DNA from: Comamonadaceae bacterium CG12_big_fil_rev_8_21_14_0_65_59_15
GTDB lineage: Bacteria; Pseudomonadota; Gammaproteobacteria; Burkholderiales; Burkholderiaceae_C
Assembly: GCA_002786915.1 (NCBI GenBank)
Contig: PCUV01000057.1
Location: forward strand, 120,076-184,075
Reading direction: 5' to 3'
DNA length: 64,000 nucleotides
Each line of letters starts with the position of its first letter. Position 1 is the stretch's first letter. The notes beneath the pieces were generated by a model. That model was not told where the DNA came from. It was given only the letters and a program-made list of their open reading frames with translations, and made no database searches. The translations under genes were made by a program, and so were the position numbers. Of this stretch, positions 18,754-32,773 are shown piece after piece.

Positions 18754-19281
18754 TCAAGCGCAGCGTTTGGCAATCCAGTGGTCAACAGACACCTTGCCCG
18801 GACCGTGTACCAGCAACAGCAGCAGCACGGCGGCCCAGGTGCCATGTGTGGGGTAGGCGTCGGGATAAACAAAGAGCTGAATCGTCAGCGTCATGCCCAG
18901 CAGCGCCAGCGCTGAAAAACGGGTGGCAAAGCCCAGCAACAGCAACACCGGGAAGGTGTGCTCGGCGGTTGCCGCTAGAGTGGCTGCCAGCTCGGGCGGT
19001 AGTAGCGGCAGGTGGTATTCGTCGCGGAACAAATCCACAACCGAGTCCGACAGGTGCGGCCAGCCCAGCACAAACTCACCGTTGACCAGGTCGATGGCAA
19101 AGCCCTGCACCTTGGTTTGGCCGGACTTCCAGAATACGGCAGAAATCGAAAAACGTGCCACCAGCGCCACCAGCGTATGCGGGACACGTGTAAACAACTC
19201 GATCAGCGCGTGAATCAGAGCCGCAAACGCACCCTCTTGGGCGGCGGCAATGCCAGACAGGCGATCAGTGTGCGGGGTCAT
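18754..19281 (-). CDS. DoxX-family membrane protein of the bufferin/Hvf cluster
   Basis: A 175-residue membrane protein with four helices. The FWKSGQTKVQGFAIDLVNG segment is the typical DoxX opening after TM1, and the TFPVLLLLGFATRFSALALL segment is a later helix. In bufferin (BufD) and Haemophilus Hvf clusters a DoxX protein is encoded beside the DUF692 enzyme and its partner. It overlaps the upstream DUF2063 gene by 17 bases. An 8-bp inverted repeat (18747-18764) sits over its stop codon. Confidence 0.85.
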   Translation of the reverse strand: MTPHTDRLSGIAAAQEGAFAALIHALIELFTRVPHTLVALVARFSISAVFWKSGQTKVQGFAIDLVNGEFVLGWPHLSDSVVDLFRDEYHLPLLPPELAATLAATAEHTFPVLLLLGFATRFSALALLGMTLTIQLFVYPDAYPTHGTWAAVLLLLLVHGPGKVSVDHWIAKRCA

Positions 19282-20056
19282 GGTGGGTGTCTCCGGTGGG
19301 GCCTATCAAAAGCTGCCAACGCAACAGCGTGGCCAAGGCGGCGGTGAGGTCAAACGTGGCGTCGTGCGCAGCGGCATCGTCGGCGGCCTGTAGCAGGGTG
19401 GCACCGCTTTGCAGTGCACCATAAAAGAGCGCAGCGCCATCATCGATGGCCTGCACCTGAACCGACAGGCCGTTTCTGAACACGCAGGCGCTTTGCGGCA
19501 CGTCTGCGTTCCATTCGGCTTGTTCATCGGTTGCCTGGTGTGCGCTCCAGATATCGACAATGGCGTAGGGCGCACGCACGATGTGCATGCTGGGGTGCAA
19601 GATCCCATGCAATGATTCGAGTTGTTGCGGATCAGCCCGCAAGGCTTGCAAACGCTCTGCTGGCATCGCCACAGCATCGGCCGCGTGGTAAGCGTGCACA
19701 TAAGCCATTTCCAGCCGCGCCACGTCGGCCAGATAGGGCACCGATGCCGCTGGGGGAAAACTGGCAACGAAATCAGCAAAGCCCCGGCCATAAAACGCCA
19801 TCACACGCGATTGCGGCGGCTGTGCCTGGGCAAACAAGCGCGCCATGGCGCGAAAAAAATCCTCACCCACCAGTTGCTGCACCACCGGATAGGTGTCGGC
19901 CAGCGCGTCGATCAGCGACACGGTGACGTTATTGCGATAGACCGCGTAGCGCAGCGCCGGGTCAGACTGGTTCCAGGTGGTCAGACCCGCCGGGCAAGGC
20001 AGCTCGGGGTTCAGCAGCGGCAGGGCAAATCCGGTCTGGCTATTCATGCTGGTCAT
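19265..20056 (-). CDS. DUF2063 partner protein of the MNIO enzyme (BufC/HvfC-like)
   Basis: A 263-residue protein with an N-terminal DUF2063 helical domain ([20 protein letters not shown]). In known clusters this subunit binds the precursor's signal or leader region and presents it to the DUF692 enzyme. Its ATG at 20056 overlaps the DUF692 stop (ATGA), and its end overlaps the DoxX gene. Overlaps through three genes suggest fixed stoichiometry. Confidence 0.88.
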
Positions 20057-21042
20057 GCCGCCACCTCAGGGTTGGTGGCCGGATGGTCGGCCCACGCCTG
20101 CCGCGTTGCGCGCTCGGCGGCTGCGACAGTTGTATCTGCACGCCGCACGGGACTGGATGGTGACTGGCGCAGCAGCGCGTCGGCCAAGTGGGCTTCGGCC
20201 AGCAGCACCGGCCAGGCGGGAATGTCGTTGTCGCGCTCCAGCAATGTGGGTTGCGCACCGGTCAAGGCCAGCGTGAAGGCGTACAAGTCCCACACCGCTT
20301 GTGCCACCGGCGCGCCGTGGCTGTCGATCAGCAAGGCGTCACCGTTGCCATCGACCTGCTCGGCAAAACCGGCCAGGTGAATCTCGCCCACCGCGTGCAG
20401 CGGCAGCGCGCGGATGGTGGCGTGCGCGTCGCGGTGGTGGTTGATGCAGCTCACATGCACGTTGTTTACATCCAGCAGCAAGCCGCAACCGGTGCGGCGC
20501 AGCACCTCGGTGATGAAACCACCCTCGTCCCAGGTGGAAGCAGCAAACTCGACGTAGGTGGCCGGGTTTTCCAGCAACATGCGCCGCTGCAGGTGCGTTT
20601 GCACCTGGTCAATGTGGTCGCACACGCGCTGCAAGGTGGCGGTGTTGTAGGGCAGGGGCAGCAAGTCGTTCAGAAACGCCGCACCGTGCGTGGACCACGC
20701 CAGGTGTTCTGAGAAAGATTGCGGCTGGTATTTGTCGAGTAGGCGCTGCAGGGCATTCAGGTGATCCACATCGAGCGCTGCGTCGGCCCCGATGGACAAG
20801 CCCACGCCGTGAATCGACAGCGGGTAACGTTCGCGGATGCGGCTCAGGTAATGGTGAAACGGGCCGCCCGCCACCAGGTAATTCTCGGCGTGGACTTCAA
20901 AGAATCCGATGTCGGGCTGGGTCGCCAGGATGGCTTGAAAATGCTCGGGCTTAAGCCCCACCCCGGCCCGTGCGGGCAGGGTGGGTGGCACGGATGGGAC
21001 AGCACCCGGGGCATGCGCTGGCAAGGGTGTGTGTTGCGACAT
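20053..21042 (-). CDS. DUF692 multinuclear iron-dependent oxidase (BufB/HvfB/MbnB-like)
   Basis: A 329-residue TIM-barrel iron enzyme. Metal-binding residues fit the family: [38 protein letters not shown] and GEIHLAGF, providing His, Glu, Asp and Asn ligands. MNIO enzymes convert Cys residues of a precursor into oxazolone/thioamide or related copper-binding groups. It sits 33 bases downstream of a DUF2282 precursor gene, as in bufferin operons. Family is certain; the exact modification is inferred. Confidence 0.93.
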
Positions 21043-21075
21043 GCCGGGTGCTCCAGGCTCAGGTTCAGGGCGCTT

Positions 21076-21399
21076 TCAGGCCTTGACTTCCTTGAACTCT
21101 TTGAGCTGACCATGGCCGGTGGGCGAGGTCTTGGACACGGTCTTTTCGCACGTGCCCTTGGGTACCATCGACCAGGCGTTGCCTTGATAGTCCCTCTTGG
21201 ACGTGCCCGCGCAGGTGGTGCCGGCGCCGGCCTTGCAGTCGTTTTTGCCTTTGAGTGCGACGCCAAAGCATTTTTCAGACTCGGCGGCCTGCGCAGCCAT
21301 GGGGGCGGCGGCAATGCCCAGAGCGGCACTCATGGCCAGGGCCAGGCCAGCGGCTGTGGCGGTACGGCGGGTCACAGGGGTATGGGATGCGGTTGTCAT
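21076..21399 (-). CDS. DUF2282 precursor peptide (bufferin/HvfA-type RiPP)
   Basis: A 107-residue precursor. A Sec signal peptide with a twin-Arg-containing n-region ends near AQAAES, and the mature part has four cysteines ([26 protein letters not shown]), the DUF2282 pattern. In bufferins these cysteines are modified by the DUF692 enzyme to bind copper in the periplasm, and the genuine signal peptide is part of recognition. It is the first gene of the A-B-C-DoxX operon. Confidence 0.88.
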
Positions 21400-22798: not shown

Positions 22799-24046
22799 TC
22801 ACTCCGTCATGCCAAACCGCCGCCGCAAGTGGATGCCCAGCCAGGTTCCGGGCAAGGCAGCCGCCAGCCACAGCCAGCCATGCAGGCTGCCTGAAGCCAC
22901 GCCCGACACAAAAGCGCCAATGTTGCAACCATAGGCGATGCGCGAGCCATAGCCCAGCAGCAAGCCGCCCAGCACCGCCGCCAGCAGAGAGCGCCACGGA
23001 AAGTTCCACGCAGGCGCAAAACGCCCGGCTAGCGTGGCGGCCAAACCGGCACCGAGCATGATCCCCAGGTCCATCAAGGACGTGGTGTCCTGCAACACGC
23101 CACCGGCCAGCGCTCCGCTTTGAAAGTCGCCTTGCCAAAAGCCACTGCTGGCAGCCTGCCAACCCAGCGCCTGCGCCGCCTTGGCTCCCCACAGGGTAAA
23201 GCCCCAGGTAATCGACCAGGGGTGACCTGCGGTGACCAAGGTAGCCAGGTTGCCCAGCGCCAGCACCACCGCTGCGGCCATGACAGGCCACGGGCCACGC
23301 AGCCAGGCGCGCCAATTGGGTAACACCGGTCGATTCAAACTTGATGGACGATCTGACGCGGCAACCGGCGCAGCTACCGGTCGTGCCCAGACGCGCAGCA
23401 AGCCGGCCAGCACGGCCAGCGCCGTCAGTTGCAGTCCCAACGCAGTTTTCCAGCCCAGCACGTCCGCCAGCACCACGGCCTCGTGCGACGGCAGCGCTTG
23501 CCACCAGCCCATGTGCAAACTGGCCCAGAACGACCCCGCGCACGCCGCCAGCAGCACCACCACCATGCGCAGGCTGCCCCCGCCTGCGGTGTACAGCGTG
23601 CCAGAGCCGCAGCCCCCGGCCACCTGCATGCCCACACCAAACAAAAATGCTCCCACCGCCACTGAGACGCTCACCGGTGCCCAGGCCCCGCCCACGCTTT
23701 GTCCCCACAGCTCGCCTTGTGCCAACAGCGGTGCAAACAGTGTGGTGGTCAAGGCCAGCAACAGCAATTGCGCCTGCACGCCGCGCATGTCACGCGCCAC
23801 GATCATGCGTCGGTAGGCACTGGCAAATCCAAACGAGGCGTGGTACAGCGCCAGGCCCAGCACCAAGCCGATCGCCCACAGCAGCACTGGCCGCCAGCCG
23901 TCGGCGCTGCGCTGCAGCGCCACACCTGCCAGCACCAGCAGTCCCAATGTCAACGGTAGCGTCTGGATGCGGCTGGTGGGGCTATGGCTTGCGGTGACTT
24001 GAGGCAATGCAACGGCTGGCAACGTTAGCTCATGGCTGGGTGGCAT
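22799..24046 (-). CDS. YeeE/YedE-family sulfur-compound transporter
   Basis: A protein of about 415 residues with two YeeE/YedE repeats. Each repeat has the key Cys motif: GGCGSGTLYTAGGG in the first half and YGCNIGAFVSG in the second. The family includes TsuA (thiosulfate uptake), where the cysteines pass the substrate through the membrane. The start at 24046 overlaps the DUF302 stop by 17 bases (an in-frame ATG at 24064 is also possible). It is the last gene of the NPCAAK-cytochrome operon. Confidence 0.87.
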   Translation of the reverse strand: MPPSHELTLPAVALPQVTASHSPTSRIQTLPLTLGLLVLAGVALQRSADGWRPVLLWAIGLVLGLALYHASFGFASAYRRMIVARDMRGVQAQLLLLALTTTLFAPLLAQGELWGQSVGGAWAPVSVSVAVGAFLFGVGMQVAGGCGSGTLYTAGGGSLRMVVVLLAACAGSFWASLHMGWWQALPSHEAVVLADVLGWKTALGLQLTALAVLAGLLRVWARPVAAPVAASDRPSSLNRPVLPNWRAWLRGPWPVMAAAVVLALGNLATLVTAGHPWSITWGFTLWGAKAAQALGWQAASSGFWQGDFQSGALAGGVLQDTTSLMDLGIMLGAGLAATLAGRFAPAWNFPWRSLLAAVLGGLLLGYGSRIAYGCNIGAFVSGVASGSLHGWLWLAAALPGTWLGIHLRRRFGMTE

Positions 24047-24527
24047 CGTGCGCGATCCGTTCAAACACCGGGTCCAGTTCAGCGGCCATGGCGTTCAAGG
24101 TAGCTGAGGCATAGGGTGCAAACACGGCGCTGGGCGTGCGGTAGGTCAGGCTGGCCGTACCGTCGGCGTTTTCGGTCACGTAAAACCGGATCGGCGCTTC
24201 GATGCCCGCAGGCACGCTGGCTTGCAACATGCGTACCGCGTAGTCGTTGCGAAACACCATCAGCACCGCGTTGCCGGGTATCTTGATGCCGCGCCCGGCC
24301 GCACCGGCACTGGCGCTGGCTGTAGCCACCAACCCCATTTTGTGTTGTTTTACGGTGGCCTCCAGCCGAGACACCAGGGTACTGAAGCTGTGCGTGCTGG
24401 GCAAGGTGTGGGTGCCCGGTAGCGCATGGGTTGGGTTGGGCGGTGTTTGCGCCCAGACGCCTTGGGTCAGCGGCAGTGTCAGCGCCAACAGGGCGGCACG
24501 CAGCCAGTTGGATCGTGTGAGGTTCAT
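24030..24527 (-). CDS. Periplasmic DUF302 protein
   Basis: A 165-residue protein with a signal peptide ending near GVWAQ and a single DUF302 domain (HSFSTLVSRLEATVKQHKMG ... VMVFRNDYAV-like strand ... PIRFYVTENADG). DUF302 proteins are often encoded next to sulfur or cytochrome genes; biochemistry is poorly known. It follows the unassigned 248-residue gene by 17 bases and overlaps the transporter gene. Confidence 0.82.
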   Translation of the reverse strand: MNLTRSNWLRAALLALTLPLTQGVWAQTPPNPTHALPGTHTLPSTHSFSTLVSRLEATVKQHKMGLVATASASAGAAGRGIKIPGNAVLMVFRNDYAVRMLQASVPAGIEAPIRFYVTENADGTASLTYRTPSAVFAPYASATLNAMAAELDPVFERIAHDATQP

Positions 24528-24544: not shown

Positions 24545-25291
24545 TCAGTGCTGGGGTATCTGCTGGGTCAACAGGGCTTGCACTTGGCTAACTTGGTCGT
24601 CCACTGAGATGCTGACCCAACTGGTCACATCCAGCGCGCGGTCTTCAAATACATCAACGCCCGGGTGTTGCACCGCCCATTGCGCCACCGCCGCGTCGCG
24701 CTGCAACAGCAATTGACGCATTTGCGGACGAAACAGCACAAATAGGGCGCTGATCCAGCGGTTCACCGGCCACGACGGCGCAGCGTGGTCAATGTTGAAC
24801 CGCGCCAGCAATTGCGTCACGTCACAGGCGGCGTACCAGGCCTCATTTGTCACCCAGCGGTTGGTGGTGAACAGGCCGATCGGAAAGCCATACGCATCCA
24901 TCGAGATGGCTATCAAATGTGATAGCGCATCGCGCCCTTTCGGCCAGGGCTCAGAGGCATTTTGATGCTCAATCGGTTGCATGCTATCGGGCATGCCAGG
25001 CGGTCGAATAAAGGTGTGAAAGTGCCCGTGTTCGCCGTCCAACCCACGGTGCGCGTGGTAGTAATACTGCGACTGCGTGTCGCGGTCAAACACGTCGTCG
25101 TTGGGGTAGTGGTTGAGCTCGATGAAATCACCCTGCCCACGCAACACTTCACCAACGATGTTCAGGCCACCCTTGGTCAGCACGCGGTAGCACTCGGTGA
25201 TCTGCTGGCCAGCGGCTTGCATGGCCAGCAGCTCTGCTGTGGGCAGACCTTGCAAGAGCGGCGAGGCTGGCGCGGGCACCGTAACGCTCAC
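24545..25291 (-). CDS. Unassigned cytoplasmic protein with a His-rich HAHR/EHGHFH motif
   Basis: A 248-residue protein without signal peptide. Its most striking feature is a central His-rich stretch, YYYHAHRGLDGEHGHFHTF, which could bind a metal. It may belong to DUF6969, but I cannot confirm that here. I chose the GTG at 25291 because it overlaps the cytochrome gene's stop as GTGA; an ATG at 25324 would overlap by 37 bases. The tight coupling suggests it acts on, or matures, the repeat protein encoded just upstream. Confidence 0.7.
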   Translation of the reverse strand: MSVTVPAPASPLLQGLPTAELLAMQAAGQQITECYRVLTKGGLNIVGEVLRGQGDFIELNHYPNDDVFDRDTQSQYYYHAHRGLDGEHGHFHTFIRPPGMPDSMQPIEHQNASEPWPKGRDALSHLIAISMDAYGFPIGLFTTNRWVTNEAWYAACDVTQLLARFNIDHAAPSWPVNRWISALFVLFRPQMRQLLLQRDAAVAQWAVQHPGVDVFEDRALDVTSWVSISVDDQVSQVQALLTQQIPQH

Positions 25292-26073
25292 ATCTTGGCG
25301 GCGCAGGGGTTCTTGGCGGCGCAAGGGTTTTTAGCAGCGCAGGGATTTTTGTTCATCTTGGCGCTGCACGGGTTCTTGGCCGAGCACGGATTTTTTGCCG
25401 CGCAGGGGTTTGCGGCTGCACCGGCTTTGGGCTTGTAGGTTTTCTGCACGCTGGCGGTGTAGGCGGTCAAGGCGGCCAGTTCGCGTGAATCCCACGCCAA
25501 GGGCTTGGTGGCCATCGGCACGACCAGGCAAAACTGCACCATTTCGTCGAGCTCGATTTTTTTCAGACCACCGCGGTCGTCGGCCATTTGCACAAAGTGC
25601 GGATACGGCTGGGCAAAGGTGTTCATGTAGGCATTGCCATTGAAGTGGCAAGAGTTGCACGACAGTCCGTTGCTGCTGAGCTTGGTGTCAGAAAAAAGTT
25701 TTTTACCCATGGCGATCAGTTCGGCCGAGTTGCCTTTGGCCAAGTGTGTGCCCGCTGGGCGTGTGACCAGTTTTGGGTCCACCTTGCCACTGGCAGCGCA
25801 CGGGTTTTTGGCAGAGCAAGGGTTTTTGGCGGCACACGGATTCTTTGCGGCGCAGGGGTTCTTGGCGGCACAAGGGTTCTTCAGCATTTTGGGCGCGCAA
25901 GGGCTCTTGGCAGCGCACGGATTCTTGGCCGAACACGGATTCATTTTGCGTGGTGCGCAGGGGTTACGCGGTGCGCATGGGCTTTGGGCAAAAGCGGCGG
26001 GGGCGCCAAATGCCATGCCGAAGATGGAAGCCAGAATGGCCGAACGGATGGCCGAAGGTTGTTGTTTCATCAA
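25288..26073 (-). CDS. SoxA-like c-type cytochrome flanked by NPCAAK Cys repeats
   Basis: A 261-residue exported protein (signal peptide about 1-29, ending AAFAQ). Residues 31-94 hold ten hexapeptide-type units of the form [NS]-P-C-[AS]-[AP]-[KR], and residues 222-260 hold six more. Between them (about 105-215) is a single heme domain with CNSCH (Cys139, Cys142, His143), a later VQFC (Cys182) and the ELAALTAYTASVQ helix typical of SoxA/thiosulfate-oxidising cytochromes. There are 19 cysteines in all. The repeats resemble small Cys-rich low-complexity proteins thought to bind metal, but a cytochrome with them at both ends is unusual. First gene of a four-gene operon. Confidence 0.85.
   Translation of the reverse strand: MMKQQPSAIRSAILASIFGMAFGAPAAFAQSPCAPRNPCAPRKMNPCSAKNPCAAKSPCAPKMLKNPCAAKNPCAAKNPCAAKNPCSAKNPCAASGKVDPKLVTRPAGTHLAKGNSAELIAMGKKLFSDTKLSSNGLSCNSCHFNGNAYMNTFAQPYPHFVQMADDRGGLKKIELDEMVQFCLVVPMATKPLAWDSRELAALTAYTASVQKTYKPKAGAAANPCAAKNPCSAKNPCSAKMNKNPCAAKNPCAAKNPCAAKM
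25294..25410 (-). repeat. C-terminal NPCAAK-coding repeat block
   Basis: DNA coding for residues 222-260 of the cytochrome: six NPC[AS]AK units, 18 bp each, interrupted once by a three-residue MNK insert. Codons differ between units, so the repeat is conserved at protein level more than at DNA level. Confidence 0.85.
25792..25983 (-). repeat. N-terminal NPCAAK-coding repeat block
   Basis: DNA coding for residues 31-94: ten Pro-Cys units, mostly 18 bp apart, with two short inserts (KM-like and MLK). Units start as SPCAPR/NPCAPR and become regular NPCAAK. Confidence 0.85.
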
Positions 26074-26200: not shown

Positions 26201-26452
26201 CTACAGCAAGGCGTCGAGTTTTCCTGATCTGTCGAGCGCGTTCAGGTCGTCAAAGCCGCCCACATGCAGGGCACCGATATAAATTTGGGGTACGGTGCGG
26301 CGCCCGGTTCGCGCCATCATGGCTTCCCACAAGCCTGGTGCAGCATCCACACGAATCTTGTTGAATTGGGTGATGCCTTTGCGAGCCAGCAAGCGCTCGG
26401 CGCTTTGGCAGTAGCCACAGCCTTGCGAGCTGTACATGGTGATTTCAGCCAT
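26201..26452 (-). CDS. Glutaredoxin (GrxC type)
   Basis: An 83-residue dithiol glutaredoxin with the active site SSQGCGYCQSAERLL and the cis-Pro motif RTVPQIYIG plus HVGGFDDL, which contacts glutathione. It reduces disulfides or glutathionylated proteins in the cytoplasm. It lies upstream of the NPCAAK-cytochrome operon in the same direction, but a promoter-like motif lies between, so it may be a separate unit. Length is normal for the family. Confidence 0.92.
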   Translation of the reverse strand: MAEITMYSSQGCGYCQSAERLLARKGITQFNKIRVDAAPGLWEAMMARTGRRTVPQIYIGALHVGGFDDLNALDRSGKLDALL

Positions 26453-30678: not shown

Positions 30679-31785
30679 ATGCCCAAGCCACAAACAACAG
30701 CGTGTGAACCGCCCAGCCGCGTGGTGCTGGTCATGCAAGGCGGCGGTGCACTGGGGGCTTTTCAAGCCGGCGTCTATGAGGCCATGCACAGCGCAGGCAT
30801 CGAACCCGACTGGGTGGTGGGTACGTCCATCGGAGCCATCAACGCTGCCTTGATTGCAGGCAACAAACCAGAGCACCGACTGGATTGTTTGCGTGAATTC
30901 TGGGACATGGTTTCCAGCGCCAGCACTTCATCGTCGCTATGGAACACCTTTGGCATGCTCAACCTGGTGCACAACATGGTGACCGTTACCAACGGTGTAC
31001 CTGGTTTTTTCAAACCCAACCCAAGTGCGCTCATGGGCACACACCTGCCGGTGGGTGTTACGCAAGCGAGCTTTTACAGCACCGAACCGTTGCGCAACAC
31101 GCTCTGTGAGTTGGCCAACTTCAATCGCATCAACGCGCATGCCACCCGCTTGACGCTGGGCGCGGTGAACGCCCGCAGCGGCCAGATGCGCTACTTTGAC
31201 AGCCGCGACACCGCGCTCACCATCGACCATGTGATGGCCTCGGGCGCGCTGCCACCGGCTTTCCCGGCCGTGATGATCGACGGTGAGCCGTATTGGGACG
31301 GTGGCATTTATTCCAACACGCCCCTGGAAGTGGTGATGGACGACAACCCACGCCAGGACTCGGTGATCTTTGCCGCCCAGTTGTGGCAACAAGAGGGTGC
31401 CGTGCCAGAGACTATTGCCCAGGTCAGCAGTCGGCTCAAAGACATTCAGTACGCCAGCCGGGCCGAGAGCCATGCGGCGCGGCAGCAGCAAATTCACCAC
31501 CTGCGCCACATCGTGCGCCAGCTCGGGGGGCTGTTGCCGCCAGCCGTACGCGCCAAACCTGAGGCCAAAGCGTTGCTGGGTTGGGGCTGCGGCACTGTGA
31601 TGCATCTGCTGCCCATGCAGGCACCGGCGCTCAGCGGTGAAGACCACACCAAAGACATCGACTTCACGCCAGCGGGTATTCGCGCACGCTGGAGGGCCGG
31701 GGTGGAATTTGCCCAGCGGCGTATCGATGCAGCCCCGTGGAACGATCCCTTTGATCCGATGCTGGGCATTGTGGTGCACAAATAG
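30679..31785 (+). CDS. Patatin-like phospholipase (DUF3734)
   Basis: A 368-residue patatin-fold hydrolase with DUF3734 in its C-terminal half. The oxyanion motif GGGALGAFQAG, nucleophile elbow GTSIGA and catalytic Asp in DGGIYSNTP are all present. It begins 3 bases after the acetoacetate decarboxylase stop. The bdhA-adc-patatin grouping recurs in Burkholderiales and may link the enzyme to polyhydroxybutyrate granules, although direct evidence is missing. Confidence 0.9.
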   Translation: MPKPQTTACEPPSRVVLVMQGGGALGAFQAGVYEAMHSAGIEPDWVVGTSIGAINAALIAGNKPEHRLDCLREFWDMVSSASTSSSLWNTFGMLNLVHNMVTVTNGVPGFFKPNPSALMGTHLPVGVTQASFYSTEPLRNTLCELANFNRINAHATRLTLGAVNARSGQMRYFDSRDTALTIDHVMASGALPPAFPAVMIDGEPYWDGGIYSNTPLEVVMDDNPRQDSVIFAAQLWQQEGAVPETIAQVSSRLKDIQYASRAESHAARQQQIHHLRHIVRQLGGLLPPAVRAKPEAKALLGWGCGTVMHLLPMQAPALSGEDHTKDIDFTPAGIRARWRAGVEFAQRRIDAAPWNDPFDPMLGIVVHK

Positions 31786-31807
31786 ACGAGCCGTGCAGGT
31801 GGACACC

Positions 31808-32773
31808 ATGCTCAACCGGACGCTGTGCAGCCTGTCACATCGGTGCTGCGCGTTGTTGCTTGTGTTGTTGGCAAGCGCGACTGCGTCTGCGCAGGTGCTT
31901 AACGGGTTTGACTTGCGGCAGTCACTGGTGCCGGCAGATCAGATTTTTCCGGGCGGGCCGGCCAAGGACGGCATACCAGCCATTGATCGGCCGCAATTTG
32001 TTGCTGCGGCAAAGGCCGATTTTTTACAGTCGGATGATCAAGTCCTTGGTTTGCAAGTGCAAGATGTGGCGCGCGCCTACCCACTGCGTATTCTGAATTG
32101 GCACGAGGTGGTCAACGACCAGTTGGGGCCAGATCCGGTGGTTATCACCTACTGCCCGTTGTGCGGCACCGGTGCGGTGTTTGATCGGCGCGTGGGCGTC
32201 AAGGTACTCAGCTTTGGCGTGTCGGGCCTGCTCTACAACAACGACGTGCTGCTGTACGACCGGCAGACCAACTCACTGTGGTCGCAATTGATGGGGCAGG
32301 CCATCAGCGGGCCCATGAAAGGGCGGCGTTTGCGTTACCTGCCCGTGACCCATACCCGCTGGGACGATTGGCACCAGGCACACGCAGCCACCCAGGTGCT
32401 GACGACCGACACGGGTGCGCAGCGATCGTACGACCGGAATCCGTATGCAGGCTACGACACCAGCAACGATGTGATGTTTCCGTTGCGCTTCAGGTCGGCA
32501 GGCTTGCATCCCAAAGAGCGTGTGCTGGCCGTGGTCATGGGTACGCAGGCCAAGGCTTATCCATTTGTCGAACTTGCCAAAACCAATGGCGTACTGAACG
32601 ACCACTTTGCCGACAGGCGGTGGACGATCCGCTTTGACCCGCGTGCCGGCCGGGCGACACTGCACGATGAACATGGCGTACAAGCCCCTGCCGTGGTAGG
32701 GTACTGGTTCGCGTGGTACGCGTTCCATCCCGAGACAGCCGTGTTCCGGGCCGAAGCGAAAGGTCGACCGTGA
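31808..32773 (+). CDS. DUF3179 secreted protein
   Basis: A 321-residue protein with a signal peptide ending near ATASAQ and a DUF3179 domain. Features include NWHEVVND, a CPLCGTGAVFDR motif (Cys-x-x-Cys) and a repeat-like C-terminal strand set. Function unknown; the CPLC pair could be redox-active or bind a metal. It follows the patatin gene by 22 bases. Confidence 0.85.
   Translation: MLNRTLCSLSHRCCALLLVLLASATASAQVLNGFDLRQSLVPADQIFPGGPAKDGIPAIDRPQFVAAAKADFLQSDDQVLGLQVQDVARAYPLRILNWHEVVNDQLGPDPVVITYCPLCGTGAVFDRRVGVKVLSFGVSGLLYNNDVLLYDRQTNSLWSQLMGQAISGPMKGRRLRYLPVTHTRWDDWHQAHAATQVLTTDTGAQRSYDRNPYAGYDTSNDVMFPLRFRSAGLHPKERVLAVVMGTQAKAYPFVELAKTNGVLNDHFADRRWTIRFDPRAGRATLHDEHGVQAPAVVGYWFAWYAFHPETAVFRAEAKGRP

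Follow-up and report, generated by a model that had tools for sequence, protein, structure and literature searches.

A cytochrome c with two cysteine-repeat arms and the association of DUF6969 genes with cysteine-repeat proteins

What could a cytochrome c with a single heme do with rows of closely spaced cysteines on both of its ends, and how is the DUF6969 protein encoded directly behind it connected to them? These questions arise from 64,000 nucleotides (nt) of contig PCUV01000057.1 of Comamonadaceae bacterium CG12_big_fil_rev_8_21_14_0_65_59_15, the whole stretch analyzed here (in the following called the window; all positions refer to it). Following up an earlier note on this DNA, we analyzed the cytochrome, its relatives and their gene neighborhoods. 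Of the two, it is the association of DUF6969 with cysteine-repeat proteins in general that stands out more.

Cysteine arms on both sides of one heme domain

The cytochrome gene and its parts are arranged as follows, with model confidence given as predicted local distance difference test (pLDDT) values from AlphaFold2.

25288..26070, minus strand: NPC-armed cytochrome c, 260 amino acids, ATG at 26070 and stop codon at 25288-25290, from the sequence and the Pfam match PF21342
25984..26070, minus strand: likely Sec signal peptide, residues 1-29 (MKQQPSAIRSAILASIFGMAFGAPAAFAQ), judged from the sequence by eye
25789..25983, minus strand: N-terminal arm, residues 30-94, with 10 PC units; pLDDT below 50 over residues 18-88
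25426..25788, minus strand: heme domain, residues 95-215, with a mostly confident model and fold matches to TsdA and SoxA
25645..25659, minus strand: CNSCH heme attachment site, residues 138-142; C138, C141 and H142 are invariant in 27 aligned proteins
25528..25530, minus strand: Cys181, predicted to ligate the heme as the counterpart, by alignment, of the cysteine in SoxA/TsdA; present in all 27 aligned proteins
25291..25410, minus strand: C-terminal arm, residues 221-260, with 6 PC units; pLDDT below 50 over residues 220-260

The ATG at 26070 is the more likely start and is preferred over the TTG at 26073, with which the listed open reading frame (ORF) begins. The repeat unit of both arms is PC[AS][AP][KRS], found ten times N-terminal and six times C-terminal to the heme domain, and all 16 units counted in the earlier note are present in the sequence, as are CNSCH and VQFC, the latter at residues 178-181 when numbering begins with the ATG. 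The regular spacing of six residues claimed for the units was seen in 11 of the 14 steps within the arms; one step measures eight residues and two measure nine. The AlphaFold2 model is confident over most of the heme domain and stays below a pLDDT of 50 in both arms.

Eight units read exactly NPCAAK, and these have eight different DNA spellings, with all 96 pairwise nucleotide differences among them at third codon positions. Because no two of these units are spelled alike, a recent expansion or slippage of a DNA repeat is ruled out as the origin of the arms. Chance or a frame artefact is likewise ruled out by the restriction of the differences to third positions, together with the outcome of a cysteine-repeat rule applied to all ORFs of the window, which flagged the cytochrome ORF as the sole one.

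Distribution and modularity of the arms

A protein homolog search scored on residues 94-216 only returned 216 relatives; where their sources give a name, it is mostly ‘cytochrome c’, ‘cytochrome c peroxidase’ or ‘hypothetical protein’. None of the 120 relatives that were listed lacks PC units outside the heme core: 102 carry them on both sides, 11 only before and 7 only after the heme. The suspicion that the arms might be variable junk of a single strain was thus dispelled. A scan of genome contigs with two heme-domain peptides gave 123 matches, of which the best 80 by similarity to the armed query were taken as cytochrome loci; their hosts are beta-, gamma- and alphaproteobacteria and records named Rokubacteria and Methylomirabilota. 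Going by these sequence matches, armed cytochromes form a family of wide distribution.

The arms were also searched for on their own, in a low-complexity search whose query was the NPC stretch of L151, an armed P460-like protein with a P460-like end that scores 22.3 bits where the cut-off is 27. Among the 120 listed of 145 matches, NPC-like segments occur in SoxA-type, P460, P460 plus LysM, peptidoglycan-binding, YHS and DUF6789 proteins, and the P460, peptidoglycan-binding, YHS and DUF6789 domains were confirmed in a further check. The 16 of these 120 proteins that were inspected contain 11-33 PC units each. Proteins with LysM or peptidoglycan-binding domains are P0242, P0251 and P0257, and P0242 is one of several database proteins combining NPC segments with a P460 domain. 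Since the same NPC segments are thus found on some members of the Cytochrome P460 family (PF16694), a heme protein family other than that of the armed cytochrome, the arms show themselves to be modular. As a separate observation, P0258 and P0262 are DUF6789 membrane proteins in which an NPC-repeat segment lies between hydrophobic stretches.

DUF6969 genes and cysteine-repeat genes

The gene following the cytochrome was identified as:

24545..25291, minus strand: DUF6969 protein (PF22308), E-value 9.6e-84, pLDDT 94, likely GTG start

This is the protein that the earlier note described as His-rich and unassigned. Its putative GTG start overlaps the stop codon of the cytochrome gene by 4 nt (25288-25291, GTGA), so that the translational coupling suggested there is plausible. 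DUF6969 was detected in 58 of the 80 cytochrome loci, in all 58 on the same strand as an NPC gene and in 50 of these no more than 300 nt away from one. Among the 22 loci without it, 11 belong to genomes that have DUF6969 elsewhere. A gene for a small NPC protein lacking the heme domain is present in 44 of the 80 loci.

To look at DUF6969 independently of the cytochrome, we used a phylum sample of 398 genomes, 20 of which have DUF6969, including the window's own; 20 regions were read from the other 19. A fixed cysteine-repeat rule was applied up to 2.5 kb from DUF6969 and, in the same genomes, to 20 control regions each 15 kb long. The automated rule flagged 14 of the 20 DUF6969 regions, one of them an antisense artefact (L160), leaving 13, compared with none of the 20 controls. 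Four more regions were added by eye, giving 17 of 20, an inspection that was confined to the DUF6969 regions while the controls remained automated. The ORFs added by eye have an apparent signal sequence, with CCAAEGC repeats in L162 and GCAACAAGC repeats in L163, while those of L165 and L169 are shorter. In L162 and L163, the products consist mostly of CCAAEG or GCAACAAGC repeats and appear to be small exported proteins, encoded next to DUF6969. Two regions (L150, L160) have no repeat partner in view, and a further one (L157) begins at a contig edge, in a genome with an armed cytochrome at another contig edge. In L152, L153 and L155, the repeat gene lies on the opposite strand at least 1 kb from DUF6969.

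In the genus sample, the second DUF6969 copy adjoins genes for KCGACKAKCG or KCAAKCAPKC proteins. Three of these second-copy loci (L116, L119 and L120) contain, besides the separate KCAAKCAPKC gene and DUF6969, an arm-less relative of the cytochrome and a pair of thioredoxin-like and CcdA genes, and we read them as probably the parts of the fusion present as separate genes. None of ten DUF6969-linked repeat proteins matched an NCBIfam family above its cut-off. The repeat motif varies, and closely spaced cysteines appear to be the common feature of the DUF6969-linked proteins. Regions L166-L169 combine small NPC genes and a remote DUF6969 with genes for a YeeE-type transporter and rhodanese, and in two of them with a Crp-type regulator; rhodanese genes were found in 4 of the 20 phylum-sample regions and in 1 of the 20 controls.

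The DUF6969 family is large, with 4997 matches at an E-value of 1e-3. The histidines H61, H79, H81, H90, H92 and H125 are near-invariant in a count that includes remote members and excludes eight ORFs covering fewer than 150 profile positions. In a Pfam scan up to an E-value of 0.1, PF22308 alone matched and PF05114 did not, ruling out an MNIO by sequence. No convincing relative with a solved structure was found by sequence (one match, E-value 0.55) or by fold, a result that does not prove a new fold, and no signal peptide was apparent to the eye in the sequence. Given the six histidines and the lack of a visible signal peptide, DUF6969 is likely a metal-binding protein that alters or protects cysteine repeats in the cytoplasm. 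It is quite possible, though we stop short of calling it probable, that DUF6969 represents a new class of maturase, a six-histidine metalloenzyme with an unseen fold that would modify NPC, KCGAC and other cysteine repeats before export. This would define a class resembling ribosomally synthesized and post-translationally modified peptides (RiPPs) and including whole cytochromes, whose modified arms would carry sulfur or metal beside the heme.

Relation of the heme domain to SoxA and TsdA

The description of the heme domain as SoxA-like was borne out. The cytochrome matches the Pfam family SoxA-TsdA_cyt-c (PF21342) with 36.5 bits against a cut-off of 27 (E-value 5e-9), a CCP_MauG match covers the first part of the same region, and a fold comparison of the heme domain returned TsdA and SoxA structures. 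In two SoxA proteins, the catalytic half has a cysteine after CXXCH, and Cys181 aligns with it; we infer His142 and Cys181 to be the heme ligands. An attempt to align TsdA via the residues downstream of CXXCH produced nothing but noise. The cytochrome thus shares with SoxA and TsdA the fold, the CXXCH motif, a cysteine in the heme-ligand column and a PF21342 score over the cut-off, but differs from them in its single CXXCH, the missing second domain and the 16 arm cysteines. A true SoxA of the Sox pathway was rejected, as the protein scores far below the cut-off of TIGR04484, the SoxA equivalog of NCBIfam, of which it is the sole match in this genome.

Genes in the neighborhood of the cytochrome

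Further neighbors in the window are:

24030..24527, minus strand: DUF302 protein, a recurrent neighbor found in 33 of 80 cytochrome loci
22799..24064, minus strand: YeeE/YedE-type sulfur transporter (PF04143), a recurrent neighbor found in 34 of 80 cytochrome loci
26201..26452, minus strand: glutaredoxin 3, an upstream neighbor assigned by family matches

Counts of neighboring genes were made with few representative queries and compared with 20 control regions from other genomes. Genes for an extracytoplasmic function (ECF) sigma factor were found in 37 of the 80 loci, for a tetraheme cytochrome in 24, for DUF3179 in 23, for glutathione reductase in 20 and for CcdA in 17, each of them absent from all 20 controls. 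Thioredoxin-like genes occur in 17 loci and no control. Glutaredoxin, with 10 of 80 loci versus 2 of 20 controls, is no commoner near the cytochrome. The neighbors of the cytochrome point to sulfur or thiol redox chemistry. A DUF3179 protein is also encoded in the window, at 31637-32773 on the plus strand.

Possible functions of the armed cytochrome

Our preferred explanation is a tentative one, on balance somewhat doubtful: the single SoxA/TsdA-type heme with its two cysteine arms would be a periplasmic sulfur or thiol oxidase that charges and discharges its own built-in carrier thiols, and DUF6969, by this prediction, would make the arm cysteines ready ahead of export. DUF6969, with its putative metal, would modify or protect the repeats in the cytoplasm, and the apparent signal sequence would then direct the cytochrome to the periplasm. 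There, the His142/Cys181 heme would remove electrons and the sulfur, as sulfane, thiosulfonate or disulfide, would pass to the arm cysteines. According to passages of PMC4423706, the TsdA reaction goes through an S-thiosulfonate on the cysteine that ligates the heme, and for SoxAX a transfer of an S-thiosulfonate to a thiol of SoxYZ has been proposed; the handover proposed here would be similar, except that SoxYZ is a separate carrier and the 16 putative carrier thiols here would sit on flexible tails of the same chain. Electrons could leave via the tetraheme cytochrome where present, small NPC proteins might serve as free carriers and YeeE might move sulfur inward. What the sequences themselves show are the arms and their conservation, a cysteine aligned with the SoxA ligand, and gene clusters with DUF6969, YeeE and DUF302, often also with small NPC proteins and the tetraheme cytochrome.

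Several results weigh against this explanation. The Arg four residues before and the Ser four residues after the TsdA cysteine are replaced by Met177 and Pro185, and because this pair is missing, thiosulfate itself may not be a substrate. The best VIA-align match, 1h31, covers chain residues 54-141 and hence the non-catalytic half of SoxA, whose catalytic domain is given as residues 177-282 in PMC4423706. The TIGR04484 match reaches 33 bits where 110 are required and lies at profile positions 6-91 of 212, and a cysteine from the N-terminal half of one SoxA shares the column of Cys181. For 56 of the 80 loci, the search for a tetraheme gene gave no match. In the phylum sample, only 4 of the 20 DUF6969 regions contain an armed SoxA-type cytochrome (L154, L156, L158 and L159), and YeeE-like genes occur in 4 of 20, DUF302, CcdA and tetraheme genes in none; the sulfur context therefore follows the cytochrome and not DUF6969.

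Arms also exist apart from DUF6969. The cytochrome was detected at an E-value of 1e-10 or better in 51 of the 398 genomes, and 30 loci were read. All six from DUF6969 genomes are armed. The 24 from genomes without a DUF6969 match comprise 21 armed cytochromes, two with acidic arms lacking cysteines and one short interrupted frame (G233), whose arm cannot be judged. When 20 of these 24 genomes were searched again, none had DUF6969 over the family cut-off, which rules it out as an obligatory partner of NPC repeats. All but two of the 21 armed loci (19) belong to one family, f78, in which 9 of 10 regions hold a gene for a tetraheme cytochrome and the five genomes tested have no MNIO gene. The arms can therefore exist without either enzyme and may work unmodified.

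The main rival is suggested by genes about 4 kb from the armed cytochrome, which would fit copper:

19265-21399, minus strand: bufferin operon with BufA1 (DUF2282), BufB (MNIO) and a BufC/HvfC-like DUF2063 protein

BufB (378 bits against an NCBIfam cut-off of 310) is the only MNIO gene found in this genome. The arms could accordingly be soft-metal thiolate ligands, chiefly for Cu(I), with the heme keeping metal or thiols in the appropriate redox state, as a bufferin-like copper buffer built on a cytochrome. The cysteines placed mostly every six residues in disordered-looking arms, the same-strand operon and the NPC units on a YHS-domain protein are consistent with this, and passages of PMC12452194 describe Buf1-cytochrome c and MerC-bufferin chimaeras, a few bufferins fused to cytochromes and sigma-factor genes in Buf1 clusters. 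Bufferins and Buf_EGKCG/oxazolins, RiPPs modified by MNIO, are likewise secreted Cys-rich proteins encoded beside a dedicated partner gene, but the repeats here are NPC or KCGAC and not DUF2282 or EGKCG, and the partner is DUF6969, without a PF05114 match, in place of MNIO plus DUF2063. No DUF2282 domain was found in the cytochrome in a Pfam scan up to an E-value of 0.1. A bufferin maturase lies near only 7 of the 80 armed-cytochrome loci, compared with 1 of 20 controls, and among the recurrent neighbors identified, genes of sulfur and thiol metabolism and of regulation predominate, in counts that included no search aimed at copper genes. We regard copper binding as unlikely, though worth serious consideration.

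Rather less likely still, the arms might be a sacrificial thiol store against hypochlorite, peroxide or disulfide stress, re-reduced by CcdA- or thioredoxin-type proteins and with the heme as sensor or sink. The ECF sigma factor, glutathione reductase, CcdA and thioredoxin-like genes absent from all controls would fit, as would the glutaredoxin upstream in the window, but glutaredoxin is not enriched and the conserved SoxA-type cysteine and YeeE are left without an account. That the arms form intermolecular disulfides fixing redox enzymes to each other or to the cell wall, as a scaffold without sulfur or metal chemistry, appears very improbable: the NPC segments in the three LysM and peptidoglycan-binding proteins above speak for it, but DUF6969, YeeE and the SoxA-type domain would remain unexplained.

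Relation to published systems

The earlier note held that the arrangement looks new. For the armed cytochrome this needs qualification, given its wide distribution, and passages of PMC12452194 already report Cys-rich domains fused to cytochromes in bufferins; it holds for the DUF neighbor, as the open-access PubMed Central (PMC) literature yielded no paper on DUF6969 or NPCAAK-type motifs apart from an unrelated mathematics paper. The same literature had no paper combining at least four of Cys-rich, NPC repeat, periplasmic, P460 and tandem repeat protein, or at least three of DUF3179, DUF302, DUF3379, ECF sigma factor and glutathione reductase, and among the papers listed there, mostly on DUF692/MNIO or RiPP mining, no title or abstract opening mentions NPC-type arms. 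The NPC arms, their range of domain types and the DUF6969 pairing are thus new as far as these searches tell. The steady pairing provides a testable substrate for a large family, and the armed cytochrome as such a substrate should be colored and easy to follow. If the arms carry sulfur, a Sox-like reaction would have carrier and enzyme in one chain; if they carry metal, the protein would be a heme-coupled metallophore.

Cytochromes with acidic arms

In two genomes without DUF6969 (G283, locus L221; G531, locus L222), the same cytochrome has acidic arms of the EGEAEA type and no cysteine repeats. Genome G217, from the genus of G283, and genome G519, from the family of G531, have both cysteine arms and DUF6969. 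In these pairs, which are too few for proof, the presence of cysteine arms appears to track DUF6969, a suggestive pattern.
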